DNA of 64,000 nucleotides from Ferruginibacter sp. GTDB taxonomy: Bacteria > Bacteroidota > Bacteroidia > Chitinophagales > Chitinophagaceae. The stretch is from contig JABFRP010000002.1 of assembly GCA_013141115.1 (NCBI GenBank), positions 2,716,647-2,780,646 on the forward strand. Reading direction: 5' to 3'. Positions within the stretch are counted from its first letter, which is position 1. Every line of letters starts with the position of its first letter. Under the pieces are notes generated by a model. It searched no databases. It was not told the origin of the DNA and was given only the letters and a program-made list of their open reading frames with translations. Made by a program: the position numbers and the translations under genes. Positions 49,720-64,000 of this stretch are shown piece after piece.

Positions 49720-50576
49720 AACTGTACCTCTTTTACGTTTTTGTTAAAAGCTTTTTCAACAAAGCATTTGTAATGTGTTCTTTCAATTTCTTTATAAGCA
49801 TTCAATCGTGCTATCATGTTGTCGAAATCTACAAGGTGCCCGTCAAACTCAGGGCCATCTACACAAACAAATTTTACTTCTTTACCTACATTAACCCTGC
49901 AACCGCCGCACATACCGGTACCGTCTACCATTATTGTATTTAAGGATACTTGTGTAAATACTTTGTAAGGCCTGGTGGTTTCGGCACAAAACTTCATCAT
50001 CACCGGCGGACCAATGGCGATAACGATATCGGGTTTTAATTCCTGTTCGCATAATTCTTTCAGCGGTGCAGTTACCAATGCTTTTATACCGGCAGTGCCA
50101 TCATCAGTACAAATAATTAATTCATCTGCAATGGCACTCATTTCTTTTTGTAAAATGATCAGCTCTTCTGTTCTTGCACCAATGATAACCGTAACATGAT
50201 TGCCAGCATTTTTTAACGCCTGTGCAATGGGATGCATGGGAGCTACGCCAATGCCACCACAAACACAAACTGCTCTTCCAAAATTTTCAATGTGTGTAGG
50301 CTTGCCTAATGGGCCAAGCAGTGCCGGTAGTTTGTCACCTACATTAAAAGTGGCTAAATGTTTGGTGGTTTTACCTACCACCTGAAAGATGATGGTGATA
50401 GAGCCTTCTATTGTATCAGCATCTGCAATGGTAAGCGGAATGCGTTCGCCATAGTCATCATCGGTTTGTAAAATAATAAATTGCCCTGCCTGCCGCTCTT
50501 CTGCAATTAATGGTGCATGCAGGCGCATTAAAAATACATCCTGAGAAAGCTGTTGCTTATAAAGTATAGTGTTCAT
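49716..50576 (-). CDS. NfnA-like FAD/[2Fe-2S] oxidoreductase small subunit
   Basis: A 286-aa protein with a ferredoxin-reductase fold: RIPLTIADAD for FAD, CVCGGIGVAPMHPIAQAL for NAD, and a C-terminal [2Fe-2S] region (GTGMCGGCRVNVG ... FVCVDGPEFDGHLVDF). It is the first gene of a two-gene operon with the large subunit. In the NfnAB complex this subunit handles NADH while the partner handles NADPH and ferredoxin; function here is inferred from that family. Confidence 0.88.
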   Translation of the reverse strand: MNTILYKQQLSQDVFLMRLHAPLIAEERQAGQFIILQTDDDYGERIPLTIADADTIEGSITIIFQVVGKTTKHLATFNVGDKLPALLGPLGKPTHIENFGRAVCVCGGIGVAPMHPIAQALKNAGNHVTVIIGARTEELIILQKEMSAIADELIICTDDGTAGIKALVTAPLKELCEQELKPDIVIAIGPPVMMKFCAETTRPYKVFTQVSLNTIMVDGTGMCGGCRVNVGKEVKFVCVDGPEFDGHLVDFDNMIARLNAYKEIERTHYKCFVEKAFNKNVKEVQL

Positions 50577-50697
50577 GTGTTACAATAAATTTCCAGGCAA
50601 ACTTAAAAATTAAATATGCCCGTAAATATGATAAATATTGGTTTTCATAAAGACAAAAATCATGAATTCAACAACTCACGTTGCTGTTTATCAATTA

Positions 50698-53109
50698 TCA
50701 ATTATCAATTCTCATTTTGTAAAACGAACGCCATACAAAAACCAATGCAATAGCAAGAAATACCAAACCAAAGTAAGGTGCCATATCCCTAAAGCTTTCT
50801 GATATAGATATTTCCATAGCCAGTAAACCAAACAATGTGGTGAATTTGATGATGGGATTTAACGCAACTGATGAAGTATCTTTAAATGGATCACCTACGG
50901 TATCACCCACTACAGTTGCATCATGCAACGGTGTTCCTTTTTCTTTAAGATCAACTTCCACTACTTTTTTTGCATTATCCCATGCGCCACCGGCATTGGC
51001 CATAAACACTGCCTGAAACAAACCAAACACAGCAATTGCCAATAAATAACTTACAAATAAACTTACTGCATTTACGCCGCCTACGCTTGATGGTGAGGAT
51101 AAAAATGCAAAGGCCAGCGAGAAAAAGAACACCGCAATAAAAATATTGAACATTCCTTTTTGTGCATATTGTGTACAGATTTTCACTACATCTTTCGACA
51201 TTTGCAGGTCGGCTTTTTTAGGTGCATCGGGGTCGAGGTTGATATTATCTTTAATATATTTTACAGCCCTGTAAGCGCCTGTGGTAACGGCCTGTAGCGA
51301 TGCTCCGGTAAACCAGTAAATAACACCACCACCAATAATAACACCTAAAATAGTGTAAGGGTTTAAAAGGTTCAGCACTTTTTCCGGTTCAATATTAAGT
51401 GTTGTTTTTATCATCAGTATCAAAGAAAATATCATGGTGGTGGCACCGGCAACTGCCGTACCTATCAATACAGGTTTTGCTGTAGCTTTAAATGTATTGC
51501 CTGCCTCATCATTTTTTTCCAGGTAATATTTTGCCTTTTCCCAATCGGGTTTAAAGCCAAAATCTTTTTCAATTTCTGCATCAATATTGGGTACTTCTTC
51601 AATTAAGGATAATTCATAAATAGATTGTGCATTATCTGTAACAGGGCCATAACTGTCTACTGCAATAGTTACGGGTCCCATGCCCAGCATACCAAATGCC
51701 ACAAGACCAAAAGAAAAAATAGATGGGTAGATCATTATTTCATCCAAGCCGAAAGTGCTGATGAAATAAGCCATAAACATCAGTACAAAAAATACTGCAC
51801 CTTTCCAGAAGGCAGAAAAATTACCCGCTACTAATCCTGATAATAAAACTAATGAAGCACCACCTTCTCGGCCAGCCCGTACAATTTCTTTTACGTGTAA
51901 AGATTTTGGAGAGGTAAATATTTTGGTGAATTCCGGTATTAGTGCAGCACCAATTGTACCACAACTGATGATAGCAGAAAGTATCCACCACATTTCTGTA
52001 TTGCCATTTAGGTCGGGCAGTAATATCCAGCTTACAATAAAAGTAACAATGATGGAAAGTATAGAAGTGATCCATACCAGATTGGTCAATGGTCTTTCAA
52101 AATCAATATCTTCTTTTTTACTGTATAGCGCATTGCTGATAAAATTATTTATCCAGAAAGATAAAACAGAAGTGATCACCATCATTATCCGCATGGCAAA
52201 TATCCATATCAGTAATTCAGTTTGAATACCTGCACCGCTAACGGCTAATAAGATAAAGGAGATCAATGCCACACCTGTTACACCGTAAGTTTCAAAACCA
52301 TCGGCGGTAGGGCCAACAGAATCACCTGCATTATCACCGGTACAATCTGCAATTACGCCGGGGTTACGTGGATCATCTTCACCAATTTTAAAAACCACTT
52401 TCATCAGGTCGGAACCAATGTCGGCAATTTTTGTAAATATACCTCCGGCAATTCTTAACACTGATGCACCTAAAGATTCTCCAATGGCAAAACCTATAAA
52501 ACAAGCACCTGCAAGTTTGCCGGGCATCAGCAATAAAATAATTAACATCATCATCAGCTCCACACAAATCAGTACCACACCAATGCTCATACCAGAGTTT
52601 AACGGAATTTTTAAAAGGTTAAGTGGTTGCCTTTTTAATGATGCAAAGGCCATACGGGCATTGGCCAGTGTATTCATCCTTATACCAAATGCGGCAACAA
52701 TATAAGACCCCATCATGCCAATGATTGTCCAGGTGATGATTAACAACACACCACCAAATCCAAATAATGCTTTTCCTTCATGATCTTTGGCTAAAAAACC
52801 AAAATAAAATGTAACTACTGTACCAATAAAAACAAACAGTATGGCTAACAACTTGCCTTGTTGTTTTAAATAGGTGCTGCAGGTTTGATAAATAATTTCA
52901 GAAATCTCCAGCATGCTTTTGTGTGCAGGTAGTTTTCTTATTTTCATATAATGGTATAAACCAAATACAAGCCCAAGTGCGGTAACTAAAAACCCCCAGT
53001 ACAATGTTGGGTCGGCATGAATGGCATCGGGTATTTGTAAATCGGCTTCGCCTGCCTGAACAAGAAAAGGTACAAGAAGGCTACAAAGAAAAATGCTGAA
53101 CTTTTTCAT
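50698..53109 (-). CDS. hppA: membrane-bound ion-pumping pyrophosphatase
   Basis: This enzyme couples hydrolysis of PPi to pumping of H+ and/or Na+ across the inner membrane. Signature sites are DDPRNPGVIADCTGDNAGDSVG and, at the C terminus, GGAWDNAKK and HDATVVGDTVGDPFKDTSS. About sixteen hydrophobic segments are visible. I chose ATG 53109 (MKKFSIFLCSLLVPF, 803 aa) because it gives a signal-like first helix. The K+-dependence motif reads GNTFKATAK, with Lys at the position that is Ala in K+-dependent enzymes. Ion specificity is not certain. Confidence 0.94.
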   Translation of the reverse strand: MKKFSIFLCSLLVPFLVQAGEADLQIPDAIHADPTLYWGFLVTALGLVFGLYHYMKIRKLPAHKSMLEISEIIYQTCSTYLKQQGKLLAILFVFIGTVVTFYFGFLAKDHEGKALFGFGGVLLIITWTIIGMMGSYIVAAFGIRMNTLANARMAFASLKRQPLNLLKIPLNSGMSIGVVLICVELMMMLIILLLMPGKLAGACFIGFAIGESLGASVLRIAGGIFTKIADIGSDLMKVVFKIGEDDPRNPGVIADCTGDNAGDSVGPTADGFETYGVTGVALISFILLAVSGAGIQTELLIWIFAMRIMMVITSVLSFWINNFISNALYSKKEDIDFERPLTNLVWITSILSIIVTFIVSWILLPDLNGNTEMWWILSAIISCGTIGAALIPEFTKIFTSPKSLHVKEIVRAGREGGASLVLLSGLVAGNFSAFWKGAVFFVLMFMAYFISTFGLDEIMIYPSIFSFGLVAFGMLGMGPVTIAVDSYGPVTDNAQSIYELSLIEEVPNIDAEIEKDFGFKPDWEKAKYYLEKNDEAGNTFKATAKPVLIGTAVAGATTMIFSLILMIKTTLNIEPEKVLNLLNPYTILGVIIGGGVIYWFTGASLQAVTTGAYRAVKYIKDNINLDPDAPKKADLQMSKDVVKICTQYAQKGMFNIFIAVFFFSLAFAFLSSPSSVGGVNAVSLFVSYLLAIAVFGLFQAVFMANAGGAWDNAKKVVEVDLKEKGTPLHDATVVGDTVGDPFKDTSSVALNPIIKFTTLFGLLAMEISISESFRDMAPYFGLVFLAIALVFVWRSFYKMRIDN

Positions 53110-53200
53110 AATATATACATTTTGAAATTTGCGGAGAGCGTGGAAAGGATTTAGCACAACACATCGTAATCGGTAGTATTAAAACAAAAAATAGAATGAA

Positions 53201-53208
53201 CAAAGTTA
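53201..53208 (-). promoter_or_regulatory. putative -7 box of hppA
   Basis: TAACTTTG on the minus strand matches TAnnTTTG, about 90 bp before the chosen start. No good -33 TTG is seen. The stretch 53210-53460 contains only a small TTACTGAT/ATCAGTAA hairpin (near 53230) and no gene I can support. Confidence 0.35.
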
Positions 53209-53460
53209 GATGGGGTTATTGGGTGTTTACTGATGCTTATCAGTAAAAAAACAGTTTGTGGTCATTGCTTTTAGGCGTTTTGCGGAATATTTTTTTACGC
53301 AAACGTTGCCGGAGTTAGGAGTGGCTTAAGTGCTAAGTAATGAGTTGTTTTTGGGGACAAGTTGCGGTTCTCTCGGCAACATTATTGCACTGTTTATCCC
53401 GGGGAACAAGAGATACTTTTGTGCTGCGTATCGTTGGCGGACTTTTACCGAAGCATAAAT

Positions 53461-53494
53461 AAAAAAGCAAAATCCAACCTTAGCTGGATTTTGC
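53461..53494 (-). terminator. minus-strand terminator next to the CRISPR array
   Basis: GCAAAATCCA/TGGATTTTGC (10 bp, perfect) is followed on the minus strand by TTTTTTATTT. It would stop transcripts running leftward through the array and so shields hppA. Confidence 0.75.
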
Positions 53495-53546
53495 AAGGAG
53501 CAGATTGGCATAGCCGCTCTGCCTGATAAAGATAAATAAAACTATC
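53495..53546 (+). promoter_or_regulatory. putative CRISPR leader
   Basis: The ~50 bp between the minus-strand terminator and the first repeat is the only leader candidate on the upstream side of the plus-strand array. No consensus promoter is obvious in it. Confidence 0.35.
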
Positions 53547-56362
53547 GTTGTGATTTGCTTTCAAACATTTAACTAACTTAGTTCTTTAACAACTTCTTTT
53601 AAGGTCTATTAGTGGTGCGTTGGTTGTGATTTGCTTTCAAACATTTAACTAACTTAGTTCTTTAACAACAGAAGGTACCGAAATGATGGTAGATAAAAGG
53701 TTGTGATTTGCTTTCAAACATTTAACTAACTTAGTTCTTTAACAACAGTTACCGTTTTTAGATTTGGAAGTAGGGGGTTGTGATTTGCTTTCAAACATTT
53801 AACTAACTTAGTTCTTTAACAACGTATTCGTAAATTAATTGTATCTATCATTGTTGTGATTTGCTTTCAAACATTTAACTAACTTAGTTCTTTAACAACT
53901 AAAACAGGGCCGATTAAAGTACTGCTCTGTTGTGATTTGCTTTCAAACATTTAACTAACTTAGTTCTTTAACAACAGCAAACAAAGTCCAGTTCCTGAAA
54001 CGGATGTTGTGATTTGCTTTCAAACATTTAACTAACTTAGTTCTTTAACAACAAAAAATATTTGCTAAGTGCAATCAATTTTGTTGTGATTTGCTTTCAA
54101 ACATTTAACTAACTTAGTTCTTTAACAACGTTGCGGTAAGCATAGCGCAATAGTACAGGGTTGTGATTTGCTTTCAAACATTTAACTAACTTAGTTCTTT
54201 AACAACAACGGTATCGTTGAAGTGACTAAGGACGGTGTTGTGATTTGCTTTCAAACATTTAACTAACTTAGTTCTTTAACAACCATGTACATGTGGATGG
54301 TGTGTATAAGGTTGTTGTGATTTGCTTTCAAACATTTAACTAACTTAGTTCTTTAACAACCCGGCTGATGCTGTAGTGATTGCTGCTTCTGTTGTGATTT
54401 GCTTTCAAACATTTAACTAACTTAGTTCTTTAACAACAATGGTAGTGAAGCCAGGGAAATAAATGATAGTTGTGATTTGCTTTCAAACATTTAACTAACT
54501 TAGTTCTTTAACAACTGAAAAGTTTGAGGCTATAATGCAGCGTGTGTTGTGATTTGCTTTCAAACATTTAACTAACTTAGTTCTTTAACAACGCCAAAAG
54601 AATTTTTATACCCTTTTACCTGTTGTGATTTGCTTTCAAACATTTAACTAACTTAGTTCTTTAACAACTTAGTAAATCTACCATAAAAACAAGTATAAGT
54701 TGTGATTTGCTTTCAAACATTTAACTAACTTAGTTCTTTAACAACTGTAAGTACATTCAAAATTGTAAACACCCCGTTGTGATTTGCTTTCAAACATTTA
54801 ACTAACTTAGTTCTTTAACAACCTTTTAGCCGTAACCTTTGCGCCGTTATGTGTTGTGATTTGCTTTCAAACATTTAACTAACTTAGTTCTTTAACAACT
54901 TGTAATTATTAATTTTATTGTAAAGGCAAGTTGTGATTTGCTTTCAAACATTTAACTAACTTAGTTCTTTAACAACAAGGATTTAAATCTTCTTTACGTT
55001 CTAAAAGTTGTGATTTGCTTTCAAACATTTAACTAACTTAGTTCTTTAACAACCCTAAACGCTTAAACCATCAATTCGCCAATGTTGTGATTTGCTTTCA
55101 AACATTTAACTAACTTAGTTCTTTAACAACAAAGTTTAAACAATTGTCTGCTGGAATTAAGTTGTGATTTGCTTTCAAACATTTAACTAACTTAGTTCTT
55201 TAACAACGCCGGTGCCAAACAATTACGTGCCGAGTTAGTTGTGATTTGCTTTCAAACATTTAACTAACTTAGTTCTTTAACAACTGACGATGCATATGGC
55301 AATTTAACCATACAGTTGTGATTTGCTTTCAAACATTTAACTAACTTAGTTCTTTAACAACTCCATGGCAGTTTTTAATTGGTAAGGGTTGGTTGTGATT
55401 TGCTTTCAAACATTTAACTAACTTAGTTCTTTAACAACAGCGAAAGCCCAAACGAACATGGTTTTTATGTTGTGATTTGCTTTCAAACATTTAACTAACT
55501 TAGTTCTTTAACAACATCTTCTGAAGGAGTTATTTTATCATCAGAGTTGTGATTTGCTTTCAAACATTTAACTAACTTAGTTCTTTAACAACATGTTTGT
55601 AATATTTTTAGAAGTGTCTTTAGTTGTGATTTGCTTTCAAACATTTAACTAACTTAGTTCTTTAACAACTCTTTTTTGATTTCCTTAAAGAATATCTTGT
55701 TGTGATTTGCTTTCAAACATTTAACTAACTTAGTTCTTTAACAACTAACAACAATACAATGAATGTCTTCAACCAGTTGTGATTTGCTTTCAAACATTTA
55801 ACTAACTTAGTTCTTTAACAACTAATAGCATTTTGTAGCTGCACCAGCACCAGTTGTGATTTGCTTTCAAACATTTAACTAACTTAGTTCTTTAACAACT
55901 TCAGCGGTTTAATATTAGCAGCGGCACGGGTTGTGATTTGCTTTCAAACATTTAACTAACTTAGTTCTTTAACAACGCCGACTACGACAGCATAATGAAT
56001 TACATGTTGTGATTTGCTTTCAAACATTTAACTAACTTAGTTCTTTAACAACTCCGCTTTTATCATCGCAATAGTTTCTTCGGTTGTGATTTGCTTTCAA
56101 ACATTTAACTAACTTAGTTCTTTAACAACACCGCTATGTTTTTAAATGGTGAGTTTACCGTTGTGATTTGCTTTCAAACATTTAACTAACTTAGTTCTTT
56201 AACAACTTATTTATGATGATCATGTTTTTTTACCAGGTTGTGATTTGCTTTCAAACATTTAACTAACTTAGTTCTTTAACAACCATTGCTTATAATCAAA
56301 GTAGCTATTTTAGCTGTTGTGATTTGCTTTCAAACATTTAACTAACTTAGTTCTTTAACAAC
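53547..56362 (+). CRISPR. type II-C CRISPR array: 37 repeats, 36 spacers
   Basis: Repeats are 47 nt and, by eye, all identical, including the first and last. They start GTTGTGATTTGCTTTC and end TTCTTTAACAAC, with a 5-bp terminal inverted repeat GTTGT/ACAAC and an internal ACTAA/TTAGT palindrome. Spacers are mostly 30 nt (29-32). The repeat 5' end pairs with the tracrRNA anti-repeat, so crRNAs are read from the plus strand, convergent with the cas genes. The array is followed by a plus-strand terminator. No two spacers look alike. The uniform repeats suggest recent or ongoing activity. Confidence 0.98.
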
Positions 56363-56450
56363 AGGGTTTGCCGAAATGCTTACTGGTATTGGTTCTAAGT
56401 TGAATTTTAGGAATAAAAATCTGCCCTTCGGTTCATTTTTTTATTCCTGT
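56363..56450 (+). other. array trailer with possible degenerate terminal unit
   Basis: About 29 nt after the last perfect repeat, GTTCTAAGTTG at 56392 partly matches the repeat start. The intervening 29 nt could be a decayed spacer. An 11-bp hairpin (AGGAATAAAAA/TTTTTATTCCT) follows. Confidence 0.3.
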
Positions 56451-56482
56451 TTTGCTTAAAAAGTTGTTGTTAAAAATGATCA

Positions 56483-56518
56483 AAGCCTGCTGGTTTATTG
56501 GCCAGCAGGCTTTTTTTT
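56483..56518 (+). terminator. intrinsic terminator after the CRISPR array
   Basis: AAGCCTGCTGG/CCAGCAGGCTT (11 bp, perfect) followed by a T8 run, 120 bp past the last repeat on the plus strand. It supports plus-strand transcription of the array. Confidence 0.88.
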
Positions 56519-56536
56519 GGCAGTGGTGCAAATAAT

Positions 56537-56608
56537 GGGCAGATCCCTCGCTATGCTCGGGATGACAGCAAGGTTGGGCAGATCCTTCGCTACGCTCAGG
56601 ATGACAGC
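56537..56608. repeat. GGATGACA-type interspersed repeats, two units
   Basis: CAGATCCCTCGCTATGCTCG and CAGATCCTTCGCTACGCTCA, each continuing to GGATGACAGC. The same ~30-bp unit recurs at 56970-57050 (as an inverted pair) and in the tandem block 57411-58150. Confidence 0.75.
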
Positions 56609-56619
56609 CGCTTTCAACA

Positions 56620-57049
<430 letters not shown>

Positions 57050-57051
<2 letters not shown>

Positions 57052-57361
57052 ATATTTCATCATTTAAAAATTTCCATTCCGGGTTAAGTGTATTGATCAA
57101 CGCTTCTTTTTTACTTCGCCTCCAGCCTTTAATTTCTTTTTCTCTTGCAATAGCATTTTCTACCTGATGAAATCTTTCGTAATACAGTAAAAAATAAGCA
57201 TTGTATTGTCCTGCAAAAGATTTGTGCCTGAAGGGTATGGAGTTTTCTTCGTGTTCTTTTAGCCGTCTGTATAAGTCGTTGGTAATGCCGGTGTATAAAA
57301 CGGTTTTGTTTTTATTGGTAACAATGTAAATGTAATAATTATGGCCGCCAGATATTTTCAT
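57050..57361 (-). CDS. GIY-YIG nuclease family protein
   Basis: The product (103 aa from ATG 57361, MKISGGHNYYIYI) carries GIY-YIG family motifs: YYIYIVTNKNKTVLYTGITNDLYRRLKEH at the N terminus, then FLLYYERFHQVENAIAREKEIKGWRRSKK. It is of the short UPF0213-like kind, frequent and often multicopy in Bacteroidota. The upstream ATG (57388) lies in the tandem repeat. It sits between cas1 and cas2 on the same strand; a role in adaptation or crRNA biology is unlikely and unproven. Confidence 0.88.
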
Positions 57362-57377
57362 TACAGTCTGTATTTTA

Positions 57378-58165
57378 TAAATGCTCATTAATGCTTCGCT
57401 CTTTCAACCAAAGCTGTCATCCCGACGAAGGAGGGACCTGCTCATCCAAGCTGCCGGTTGCTATTGAGCAAAGACATACTCACTACACAAAGCCCACTCT
57501 GAATTTCACAAGTCCTCTGCAAATTATTCAAGCCTTTTTTGTTGGCACTCTTTAATGCTGGCCTGCAGCACCGCCGGGCAGATCCTTCGCTACGCTCTGG
57601 ACGACAGCTGCACTTGGACATTGGTGAAAAGCCTGCTATTTATCAATGCTCATGATTGCTTTTTTGTTCCAATCAAAGCTGTCTTCCCGACGAAGGAGGG
57701 ACCTGCTCATCCAAGCTGCCGGTTGCTATTGAGCAAAGACATACTCACTACACAAAGCCCACTCTGAATTTCACAAATTCTCTGCAAATTATTCAAGCCT
57801 TTTTTGTTGGCACTCTTTAATGCCGGCCTGCAGCACCGCCGGGCAGATCCTTCGCTACGCTCTGGACGACAGCTGTACTTGGAGCATTGGCGAAAAGCTT
57901 GCTATTTATCAATGCTCATGATTGCTTTTTTGTTCCAATCAAAGCTGTCATCCCGACGAAGGAGGGACCTGCTCATCCAAGCTGCCAGTTGCTATTCAGC
58001 AAAGACCTACTCACTACACAAAGCCCACTCTGAATTTCACAAGTCCTCTGCAAATTATTCAAGCCTTTTTTGTTGGCACTCTCTAATGCTGGCCCGCAGC
58101 ACCGCCGGGCAGATCCTTCGCTACGCTCTGGACGACAGCTGTACTTGGGCATTTGTACAAAGCCA
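57378..58165. repeat. ~265-bp tandem repeat, about 2.8 copies, between cas1 and the GIY-YIG gene
   Basis: Units begin AAGCTGTC at 57411, 57676 and 57942 (periods 265 and 266 bp). Each contains CGACGAAGGAGGGACCTGCT, TTGAGCAAAGACATACTCAC-like text, CCGCCGGGCAGATCCTTCGC and TTATCAATGCTCATGATTGC-like text. The last segment resembles the region at the GIY-YIG start. Units are nearly identical, so the duplication is recent. No gene is supported in this 780 bp; ORFs on it repeat with it. Confidence 0.85.
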
Positions 58166-58170
58166 TTCAT

Positions 58171-59091
58171 TTAATCTATCGACGGGTATAAAATTTTTCG
58201 TTGCGATCCTTCAAAACATTTACTTAATGATGCCGTTGTTTTTTGAACAGCCACCATTAACGGGCTTTTTTCATTATTAATTATTACATCCATTGCCGGA
58301 ATATTCAACAGGTCTTTTTTCATTGATGGTGTAAGCTCTAAAAATTTGCCATTAAGGTTTACAATGTTAACTACTACTTTATCTACAAAAGGCCGGTAAG
58401 GTTCCATAATATCATCTGCAAGGCAATAGGCATTATATTGATTTTTATGAAAAATACCCAGCGTGGGCAACATGCCACTGGCCACAATGCTACGGGCAAC
58501 CACAGCCCTTAAAATAGCGTAGCCATAATTTAATAAGTTATTAGGTGGCGCTCCTTCACGGTCTCTTTTAAAATCTAAAAAATCGGGAAAAATATTTTTC
58601 CAGTAATAAGCTGCCGCCACAGCTTCATGGTTATCGCCATCGCCGCTTTTTACTTCGTTGGCCCAGTTACGCATATTTTTAGCGGGTACTCGTATATTTT
58701 CCAACAAACCAGCCTGGTTATTTATTTTGCAGCTTACCGTTTGTTGCCATAATTGTTTTTTAAGCGGAATAGTAGCTTCTATCTGCGCCTGAAATTTGGC
58801 GCTTTGTAAACTATGCCCATCTAAATTTAATAACAGGCCGGTGGGGTGGTGGCGGTTATCGCAGGTAATAAAAGCCACATTATTATCCAATAGTTTTGCT
58901 ATTAATGCCTGGCTGATGGTTATTTGCTGATGATCTACTATCAACACACCAATATCTTCAATAGGTACCGTTTTAATTTCTTCGGGCAATGGCTGCCCGT
59001 TTACCATCTCTGTGGGCAATACAATAACCAACTGCTCATCTTTTGTTTTAAGATAAGCAGGATTGCCGAAGTAGAGGGTGCGTTTGATCAT
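58171..59091 (-). CDS. cas1: Cas1 (type II-C)
   Basis: Cas1 is the integrase of spacer acquisition. Start MIKRTLYFGNPAYL at 59091 (306 aa) is preferred; it lies 4 bp after the cas9 stop, so the genes are coupled. The core motif LLNYGYAILRAVVARSIVASGMLPTLGIFHKNQYNAYCLADDIMEPYRPFVD includes the conserved Glu/His/Asp metal ligands (in the usual places). The C terminus runs into the tandem repeats. The preceding cas9 frameshift does not affect cas1. Confidence 0.95.
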   Translation of the reverse strand: MIKRTLYFGNPAYLKTKDEQLVIVLPTEMVNGQPLPEEIKTVPIEDIGVLIVDHQQITISQALIAKLLDNNVAFITCDNRHHPTGLLLNLDGHSLQSAKFQAQIEATIPLKKQLWQQTVSCKINNQAGLLENIRVPAKNMRNWANEVKSGDGDNHEAVAAAYYWKNIFPDFLDFKRDREGAPPNNLLNYGYAILRAVVARSIVASGMLPTLGIFHKNQYNAYCLADDIMEPYRPFVDKVVVNIVNLNGKFLELTPSMKKDLLNIPAMDVIINNEKSPLMVAVQKTTASLSKCFEGSQRKILYPSID

Positions 59092-59095
59092 ATTA

Positions 59096-62000
59096 TCAAC
59101 TTGTAGGTGAAATATTACCCAACCTATCAACTTTTAGCTTAATAAAATTTTCTTTTATTAACTGCTTTTTATCACTAGTTTTTTCAGACTTATTCATGCT
59201 TTCAAATTCTCCTTTTTTTATTTTTGAATCATAAGGTTGTATTAAAGCACTAACATTTGCGGGTAAAAAGTGCACTGAATATTCTTGAGAACTTTTCATA
59301 ATGTAAGTTCTTTCTGCAATCTTTTTCTTATTACTCCAGTCTATTTGATTCATAATTTCTCCCTCTTCAGGTACATATACCAAATCTCCGGGAGAAAGGA
59401 CAATATATTTACTATTCGGGTCTTCATCATGAATCTGCAATCCTTTAGCTAAACGATTAATGCATTCTAAAAAATTAGGAGTACTATATTTTCGTACTAC
59501 TTTTTGTTCGCCATTTTTTTTGTCAATTTCATTTTTTATCTCTACTAAAAAATATTGATTAACACCAGCTACGCCTTCCAAAAGGTAATCACGTAAAGCA
59601 ATTTTGTTTTTTGCTTCACCATCAAGTACCGTTACTTTATTAATAGGATAGGGGGCTTTCTTATAGAGTTGCTCAAGCCCTTCACCTTTAAATGCAATAC
59701 TTGGGGACTTTTCATTCTCTTCTAAATGACTCTTTAATAATGTGGTTAACCAGTTCTTTTCTAAATCTGCATTTGGCATTTTCTTGATTACATCTAAAGT
59801 AAATTTATCATCAATTGTTCTGCGTTTCGAAGCGTATTTAACAAAGCGTAGCAAATCAATTTTATCTAAATTATTTCCTTGTTCATCTTTTATTGGGAAA
59901 TTGGAAAAATACTTAAGAACTTCTTTTTCGCTATTGTTAAACTGAAATAAAACCGTATTTATTTGCTTCCGTAAATCTTTTTTTGCAATTCTCCAATCTT
60001 CGGTATTCCACTCAAATTTTTCTCTTGTATTATAATAAATTTGTTTTTGAATAGCTTTTTTAAAATCAACATTTTTTTGATATTCAGGTTGTGTTACTGT
60101 TCCTAAAGGCAGTGCAAATAATGTTTGTCTTGCTGCAACCCAATATTTATCATCATCAAGTGGTGCTGTTTGGAAATGAATTTTCTTTTCCCACTTCCCT
60201 GGCTCTATTTCTTTCCATTTATAATATTTGTTAATAGCTTTTGAGATAAGTTTGGAAGTAGGCTTGTGAGATACAACTATTGCTTCTATAGCTTCTTTAG
60301 CATCTAAATAAAACCGTTCCCATGGCGTTCCAAACTCTGTCATACCATTTTCCTGATTTTCAAATTGCTTTCTCTTATTTAATAAATATTTCCATTTAGC
60401 CCATTCGCCATATTTAGCAATGTCTTTTTTATTATTGCTTAAAGAATTTAGGCTATTTAAATATTTAATATGGCTTCGGCTTGTACAGGCAATTACTAAA
60501 GCATCTAAAGCATGATGCCGATGGTCAATTCTCTTATAATTTTTGGCAAAATGATAATCACCCTCCTTGGTTTCGCTTGGAAGAATTAATGGTTCTCCTA
60601 AAATGCCTTCGAGCCTTTCAAAACGTGGTTTTAATACTTCTTTCCATAGTTTATTCAGACCCCATTTATTTTTTAAATCTGAGGTTATGCTGCCAGAAGA
60701 ATAAATAACTCCTTCATCGGTATCATTACCTACTGCAATAGGGCGTAAAAATTGTGCGACAGTCCTCGATATGTACTTTGTGTCATTCATTTGTCTTTCT
60801 ACAAAATCTTCGGGTACCTCATATAGCTTCAAGTGACGTTTTTTCTTTTTATTTGTAAATACATTATCAGCAAAGTATTTGTAGTCTTCTATTGATAATA
60901 CGGTTACTTTTTGACCGTTACTTAAATTTATTTCTTTGCCTTGTGAATCTTCTATAAACTGGATTGCCAATCTATTATCTTTTAAAGCGTTTACCTCAGC
61001 TTCAACTACAACCTTATTCCCAAAAGAGTCGTCATAGAATTTGGCTCTTGGGATAATGTGATCTATTTGGTATTTTTCAGTGAATAGTTCACTTAATGGG
61101 ATTGCTTTTCCTGTATACGGGGAACGGTAATTCTGTTCTGCCCAATGTCTGTATTTTTCAATATCTGCATCTTTTACAAATTCGGCATTATTCTTTTTAA
61201 ATAGACCATCAAAAGATTCTTCACCTTCTTTTCCTCCATTTTCTTTCCAGATTCTGAATTTGTCGACATCAGATAAAGAATTTTTATTGAAGTTGGGGTA
61301 TTTTAATTCTTTAAGAAGATTTGCTACTCTTTCCCTTTCTATTCTATTTTTAGAATTTGCTTCCGCTATTTTCTTTCGATCTTCATTATTATTCTTCATT
61401 TCTCTACCTAATTCAACATGTATGTAATCAGGCCTACCCAATTTTTCATTTGCCCATATATCTTTTACAAGGCTTAAGGTTTCTCGTATTATTTTTTCTA
61501 CAACAGGATTGCGAAGAGAATTATAGGGAATTATCTCTTTTATTTTAAAATCTTCTGTTGTTTCATATTTTCCCTCATTTGCCCTTTCACTATGGCGACC
61601 ATAAACCACATAAGAAGCAATATAAGTTGGGAGTTCTGCAAAATCAGTAATTGAGTTAAGGTTCAGTTTTTGTATTTCATCTCTTACTTTATCTGAAATT
61701 GTTTCATCAAACTCGCCATCAATTATTTTATTTATTCTTTCTAAAGTGTTTTTGTCAAAATCTTCACTCCAGTATTTTCCACAACGCAGTAAAGGCAATA
61801 ATTTATTAATTGCTTTTGCAGATAATGAAGCGTATTGGCTTTTAAATTCAGGGAGTTTTGAAATGTGATTTATAACCGCTTCTGGAAAATTAAAATATTT
61901 CTTATTCTTTAATGCAGATATAATTTCACTTTCTTCCGGCAGTGAATAAACAATATGCCATAGTTGATTGAATAGCTTTCTGTCTTTTAAATACAATTCG

Positions 62001-63615
62001 CCTTCCTCTATGCAAGAATGTTTCTTAAATACTTTTCTAAATAAAGCTTTGGTTTCATTGCCAATGAAACTTTTGTCATCAGGGTAATTAAGTTTATAAT
62101 TGTAAGTCTTTTCGCCATTTTCCACCTGGTTTTTTTTAAATCCTAATAATCTTAAAATACTATCATGGCTAACTTCTGAGGAATTATCAAATAATTCAAA
62201 AAGGTTTTCCTTATTTTCAAGAGTTAAATAAGTCTGGCTGACATCTATATTAATTTTTAATTTCCCATCAATTGTTTCTTCTTTTTGTATAATTTTTATG
62301 TTGTGAATAGTCTGCCATATTCTAAATTCTTGAAAGCAGGGATTGCTTCTGGAGGTAACTTTTACTCCTACAATTTTTGTTTCAGCATCTTTGGCTTTAT
62401 AAGCTTTGGTTTCATACTGGCAATTTGCTAATAATCCTTTTTGTGATTTTAATCCTCTTTGGTAATAAATAATATCGTTAAAAATATGTGGAATAAATCT
62501 TTACTTTTTAGTTCTTTGTTTTTTTCTTTGTTGTGGGTGTAAAAGCTATCCGATATTTCGGCTATTTTGTTTTTATCAGTAAATTCTTTTTCGAATGTAC
62601 TAGCTTGTGTTTCCCAGATTTGTTTTAGCTCTTCTTGATAAAATTTTCTATCAACAATTCTTTGTTTAATTGGATAGTTTCTGTCAGCTTTAATGTTTTT
62701 TAAATAGTATTCTGATATGGTTAAGTTTTCTTTAGCAATATCTTTTTCAAGTGCCAATTTTCTGCTTTCCCACGCATTGGGATCAACTTCAGATATTGTG
62801 TAAGTCGATTTAAGGTCTTTAGTCGTTTTCTTAGTTATTTCTACTTCAATATTTTTATTAAGCCAATCTAAGGGTTTTTGCCTTTTTTTTATTGCTGTGA
62901 ATTCTAGATCAGAGGTTGCACATGTTAGTTCATAAAATGTATAACCCCTATCCTTACCTTCCCCTTTCCCATTTTCTTTAATGGAAGTAATAATTACAAT
63001 TTCCACCCATTTCTCATAAAGTGGATATTTCGTTTCAGTAGTTTCAATTTCTATTTTGTTATCCTTCCTACTACTTTTAAATCCTCTTCGTTGATTATAA
63101 TGATAAAGAATTCTGGCAAGTTCGGTTAAACTAACCTGCGTATGTAATGCTTTTGTTTTAAGAAAGTAAATTATCCAATCTTCTGATATTTCATACTCTT
63201 CGCCTGTGGTAGTTTTCTTTCCAGATACTCCAAAAAAATCGGCCGCTTCTTTTTTTAAACTATTAGAAAAGGGTAGGAATTGGTTTATATTATGTTTGTC
63301 TAAATTCTTAAAATTTATTGGAAATTCTTTTGGTATCCATTCAAGAATTTTCAAGGCTTCAATAAGCCTTGTCCTTCTAAGTTTATAGCGTTGATTTAAT
63401 CTTCTGGCTCCTCTGACTTGTGTTCTTCCTGCTGCTTTTGATTCAGGTATACCAGTTTCAAATTTGTTCATTGCATCTGCGTCCATGGGTATAATTCGAC
63501 TACCTAATTGGATAATTTTGCCATTTAAAATTTCAGGATTTTCATAAGCATTACTTTCTATAAATGCCCACCCAATTGAGTTTGTTCCTATATCCAAACC
63601 TAGAATTTTTTTCAT
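59096..63615 (-). pseudogene. cas9: Cas9 (type II-C), single-base frameshift
   Basis: Two ORFs (388 aa and 1009 aa) are one Cas9 of about 1506 aa. Frame 1 holds RuvC-I (ILGLDIGTNSIGWAF, Asp8) and the Arg-rich bridge helix (RGARRLNQRYKLRRTRL) and ends falsely at 62449. A +1 shift near 62477-62484, at an A5 run on the plus strand, restores NDIIYYQRGLKSQKGLLANC and continues through 62126 into the second ORF. That part has RuvC-II (HVELGREM, ~735), HNH (QIDHIIPRAKFYDDSF, His ~853; later Asn present) and RuvC-III (DHRHHALDALVIAC, ~1033). All catalytic residues are intact. Whether the shift is real or a sequencing error is unknown. tracrRNA is just upstream. Confidence 0.95.
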
Positions 63616-63643
63616 TTCTGATTTATTTAGGGTTAAACGAAAA

Positions 63644-63672
63644 CAAAAAAATGCCCCGAAGTACGTCGAGGC
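63644..63672 (-). terminator. tracrRNA terminator
   Basis: GCCTCGA/TCGGGGC (7 bp, one G-T) followed by ATTTTTTTG on the minus strand, 29 bp upstream of the cas9 start codon. Confidence 0.8.
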
Positions 63673-63712
63673 TCGTGAAAATCATTGCGGAATGATCCTT
63701 ATTGTGATTTGC
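63650..63712 (-). ncRNA. tracrRNA
   Basis: Read on the minus strand: an anti-repeat with AGCAAATCACAA, complementary over 12 nt to the start of the CRISPR repeat; a nexus-like hairpin (ATCATT-CCGC-AATGAT, 63681-63696); and the terminator hairpin. A TATCTTTA box at 63718-63725 would start transcription near 63711. The RNA is about 65 nt, short but complete in architecture. Confidence 0.85.
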
Positions 63713-63754
63713 TACTTTAAAGATATAGGAATTATTTTAAATTAGAAAAATAAT

Positions 63755-63789
63755 AAATAAAAAATCCTAACTCATCAAGCCGGGATTTT
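63755..63789 (-). terminator. terminator of the LytTR gene
   Basis: AAAATCC/GGATTTT followed by a T run and TATTTATT on the minus strand, 34 bp after the LytTR stop. Confidence 0.65.
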
Positions 63790-63822
63790 ACAAAAAAATT
63801 AGATCAAACCTGCATTTTGCAC

Positions 63823-64000
63823 TTAATGCTGCTTTAGTGTGTTCATCACCATTTCCTTACGCCTTTTTGAAACGGTAAATTGTTTTCCATCACTCATCAG
63901 CAGCATACCTTCCCTGTCCACACTGGTAACATACTTAGTATTTACCAATGTGGATTTATGGATCCGCAAAAATCCATGATCCGCCAGCAGGTCTTCATAC
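63823..64000 (-). CDS. LytTR-family response regulator, 3' part
   Basis: The gene runs off the window. The visible 59 residues are a LytTR DNA-binding domain: LLADHGFLRIHKSTLVNTKY, then VTSVDREGMLLMSDGKQFTV and SKRRKEMVMNTL. It is not in the ORF track because it has no start in the window. The receiver domain would lie beyond 64000. It resembles the C terminus of the regulator at 137, but is a different sequence. Confidence 0.85.
   Translation of the reverse strand, partial: YEDLLADHGFLRIHKSTLVNTKYVTSVDREGMLLMSDGKQFTVSKRRKEMVMNTLKQH

Follow-up and report, generated by a model that had tools for sequence, protein, structure and literature searches.

The CRISPR locus

The window, by which we mean the whole 64,000-nt stretch of a Ferruginibacter sp. 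contig that was analysed, holds a CRISPR locus whose largest gene encodes a Cas9. The Cas9 coding region runs from 63615 to 59096 on the minus strand and is split over two frames. The first frame (62449–63615, minus strand, 388 aa) comprises RuvC-I, with the motif GLDIGTNS, the bridge helix and part of REC, and its final ~9 codons are out of frame. The remainder of the protein lies in a second frame (59096–62479, minus strand), which carries the rest of REC, RuvC-II, HNH, RuvC-III and the C-terminus, with family matches to HNH_4 and RuvC_III; it is open from stop to stop over 1134 aa, beginning just before the break and ending with the stop at 59096. The RuvC and HNH parts are thus all present, as a preliminary description of this DNA had claimed, RuvC-I in the first fragment and the others in the second.

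Just upstream of cas9, a block at 63645–63713 on the minus strand is predicted to be a tracrRNA; an anti-repeat, a stem-loop and a hairpin resembling a terminator, with a T run, can be recognised in it. We read it in this way because a nearly identical block precedes cas9 in three relatives (L023, L024, and L025) and because the block in the window pairs with the CRISPR repeat at −17.7 kcal/mol. A search of positions 50000–64000 against Rfam gave no match, and the tracrRNA-like element belongs to no Rfam family at the gathering score. On the other side of cas9 lie a type II cas1 (58171–59130, minus strand; TIGR03639, 309 bits), whose open reading frame opens at a TTG and whose start is likely the ATG at 59094 (MIKRTLYF), an intact cas2 (56620–56955, minus strand; TIGR01573), and a CRISPR array (53547–56362) of 37 identical 47-nt repeats and 36 spacers of 29–32 nt.

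The features expected of a type II system are therefore found together: a Cas9 with RuvC and HNH, though over two frames as assembled, a type II cas1 and a cas2 beside it, and a predicted tracrRNA that pairs with the repeat. The minus-strand open reading frames of at least 80 aa in the operon are those of cas9, cas1, a GIY-YIG gene and cas2 only, and neither csn2 nor cas4 is among them. The absence of csn2 and cas4 sets II-C systems apart from II-A and II-B, and the system would accordingly be a II-C-like one, an assignment made by gene content and not by phylogeny. Apart from the split in cas9, there is no sign of decay in the locus, and all other parts look intact.

No match to any of the 36 spacers was found in 1.56 Mb of the organism's own genome (29% of it) or in 1.2 Mb of another genome of the genus (G026), with up to six mismatches allowed in both cases. 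Phage records gave no match for 22 spacers searched as a joined query, and viral contigs gave no exact match for the two spacers searched.

The frame break in cas9

The frame shifts by one at a run of five equal bases (62480–62484; A5 on the plus strand, T5 on the coding strand), and the first frame meets a stop about nine codons further on. A frameshift at a five-base homopolymer had been noted before at 62477–62484; the homopolymer is where it was said to be, while the exact A run is confined to 62480–62484. The further claim that a single base is missing is confirmed by alignment, in which the window's run lacks one base relative to L003/L022, L023 and L025. In the relative that matches best at the break site (L023), the sequence is CACATATTTTTTAATGAC, against CACATATTTTTAACGAT in the window, that is, T6 vs. 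T5, with the missing base falling within the run.

Both fragments match one protein model and one solved chain, each in consecutive order. NCBIfam TIGR01865 is covered at positions 2–238 by the first fragment and 345–996 by the second, and the chain of CbCas9 (PDB 8iyq), the nearest solved relative, aligns with them at residues 3–376 and then 482–1144, the RuvC and HNH motifs being present. The break is therefore really there in the sequence file and is not caused by a chance overlap of open reading frames, and the protein belongs to a known kind, the long Bacteroidota Cas9 proteins related to CbCas9. It is the only lesion in the gene, which elsewhere contains 21 unbroken homopolymer runs of 6–8 bases, all longer than the T5 tract.

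Four relatives have an unbroken Cas9 (1510 aa in L022, 1502 aa in L023, 1497 aa in L024, and 1582 aa in L025), which bears out the earlier description of an otherwise complete protein, with an expected full length here of about 1506 aa. In a genome of the same genus (G029/L003), the frame is likewise intact, at 1511 aa from stop to stop and with 80% identity over the second part; its gene is identical to that of L022, a Ferruginibacter MAG. The close Cas9 relatives examined thus have a single frame, whereas Cas9 here is split by one missing base in the assembly, and among the genomes examined this is the only assembly in which a split was seen. Relative to L022, dN/dS is 0.064 upstream of the break and 0.076 downstream of it, both rough ratios given that dS is near saturation. 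By this comparison of coding sequences, both halves appear to be under strong purifying selection to an equal degree. An established pseudogene, which would be expected to show several lesions and relaxed selection, does not agree with one lesion and these ratios.

Several ways in which a cell might live with such a gene can be set against these observations. In a phase-variable switch, run length would change at a high rate and toggle Cas9 within the population, as happens in contingency genes, which also break at homopolymers in the coding sequence, and the position here is a suitable one, since a shift this early, in the first third of the gene, would turn Cas9 off completely. The tract, unlike those of contingency genes, is only 5–6 bases long in a gene whose 21 longer runs are unbroken, and its length and composition are not fixed among relatives (T8 in L022, T6 in L023, and interrupted in L025), so that no long hypermutable tract has been kept. 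Our literature search found nothing specific on natural phase variation or frameshifting of Cas9. We consider a switch of this kind very improbable, and just as improbable its consequence, a natural population in which immune and non-immune cells are mixed and have one array in common.

Alternatively, low-level full-length Cas9 could be made from the split gene by programmed −1 frameshifting or by transcriptional slippage. The shift required is indeed −1, and the site, A_UUU_UUA, is one base away from the slippery sequence U_UUU_UUA. The canonical slippery heptamer has the form X_XXY_YYZ, to which A_UUU_UUA does not conform, and no stimulatory structure lies downstream of the site (z = +1.09), so that neither the canonical heptamer nor the downstream structure of a programmed shift is found; in addition, no relative needs such a shift. 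A T5 run is short for transcriptional slippage. The chance that the gene is expressed in either of these ways is, we believe, very slight, and we find no support for phase variation or for programmed frameshifting. We also considered a split Cas9 produced by internal restart, and rejected it: in the second frame, translation could first resume at a GTG start codon at 62125, ~350 nt past the break, and a restart there would give a fragment without part of REC.

Frame breaks elsewhere in the assembly

The base rate of similar breaks was estimated by scanning 1.564 Mb of the same contig (G000 C1 1316647–2880874, window included) and, as a comparison set, 1.2 Mb of G026, for places where the hexamer coding signal switches frame without a nearby ATG; candidates were then judged by eye. 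Eight frame breaks were found in the 1.564 Mb, and seven of the eight lie in or beside runs of at least four equal bases. The same scan over the 1.2 Mb of G026 gave no convincing frame break. Under equal rates, the chance that all eight would fall in the assembly studied here is ~0.01, from (1.564/2.764)^8. Simulated one-base deletions were recovered in 134 of 300 cases (45% sensitivity), which brings the corrected rate to ~11 breaks per Mb; extrapolated from this figure, ~60 genes may be broken similarly genome-wide. No convincing nonsense lesion emerged from the scan, in which simulated stops were recovered in 113 of 300 cases (38%); the candidates for such lesions looked like gene ends or antisense frames when judged by eye. 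A comparison of orthologs with G026 alone, though a small set (83 proteins with at least 40% identity), already gave one break.

Besides the Cas9 break (G000 C1 2779142), seven others lie on the same contig outside the window. A PKD-domain protein (2616216) is whole in G026, a SusC-type receptor (2521085) and a heparinase-like lyase (2533134) are whole in relatives of the same genus, and a SusG-like amylase (2854182) and a DUF5682 protein (1389476) each have their family model split over two frames. Nearly all genomes of the genus have an unbroken copy of the genus core gene affected at 2041192, and the break in a gene without a name (2397377) comes from the frame reading alone. Further breaks at homopolymers in the same assembly are what a homopolymer error in cas9 would lead one to expect, and these seven suggest assembly indels. 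For the frame breaks of the contig, we infer base-calling or consensus errors rather than mutations.

Origin of the break

Taken together, breaks that favour homopolymers, the lack of nonsense lesions and a core gene among those reached argue that Cas9 is probably intact in the organism and that the sequence file is wrong. We are fairly confident that the break is a residual homopolymer indel of sequencing or assembly, and most likely it reflects nothing biological. Of the three options offered by the preliminary description, sequencing error is the one favoured by the base rate, the phase-variable switch is not supported, given the short and unconserved tract, and recent inactivation ranks second. 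Gene-breaking homopolymer indels are a known residual error in long-read assemblies (PMC9262707, PMC12007338), and the breaks found here resemble them in being small, mostly at short homopolymers, and in causing frameshifts rather than nonsense; the uncorrected long-read draft in PMC12007338 has an error rate far above the ~11 per Mb seen here. If the break is such an error, the real run would be one base longer than the assembled five, and the organism would have an ordinary, intact II-C-like Cas9 of about 1506 aa, which would work with the tracrRNA, cas1, cas2, and the 36-spacer array. Annotation from this assembly would then mislabel the CRISPR system as defective, and the case serves as a warning.

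Some observations do not sit easily with an assembly error. Slippage at homopolymers is the commonest real indel too, and since the cell could do without most of the other genes that are broken, some of the breaks may be real. A/T runs of up to eight bases are not depleted in the assembly relative to G026. In addition, what changed in the core gene seems to be two bases and not the length of a homopolymer, and the break at 2397377 was recognised on frame reading only.

The main competing explanation is that slippage truly removed one base and inactivated Cas9 not long ago, with the deletion now fixed or gaining in frequency in the lineage. A very recent loss would be expected to leave a lone lesion in a gene that is intact elsewhere, homopolymer runs are slippage hot spots and fit a real deletion, and, as no second or backup Cas9 was found in this genome, the system would be put out of action by a genuine break. 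The cell would be left with a 388-aa stub that lacks HNH, and the rest of the gene would go untranslated; interference would be lost, and probably spacer acquisition too, while the array would persist. On the other hand, with ~11 breaks per Mb in the assembly, any 4.5-kb gene has a ~5% chance of being hit by error alone, and the gene shows neither a second lesion nor relaxed selection, although a recent loss would equally leave one lesion and an unchanged dN/dS. Self-targeting, which we considered as a driver of Cas9 loss, was set aside as a motive given that no spacer matched the 29% of the genome searched. We regard a real inactivation as unlikely, though well ahead of the switch or the programmed shift. 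A real break would add one more example of a CRISPR effector that is silenced while its array is preserved.

Extra genes in the cas operon

Between cas2 and cas1, at 56500–58170 of the window, lies a small GIY-YIG gene (57050–57388) flanked by repeated segments (GGGCAGATCCTTCGCTACGCTC...GGATGACA). In L022 to L025, cas1 directly adjoins cas2, unlike in the window, and for this reason the GIY-YIG region has the look of a repeat-rich insertion in the operon. The relatives have an extra gene of their own between cas9 and cas1. In L022 (4955–5437) and L025 (13248–13730), this gene (LIGGYAVNYYGYNRVTGDMDIW) reads as nucleotidyltransferase-like, and in L023 (5981–6601), it looks like a REP-associated transposase, both names coming from our reading of the sequences.
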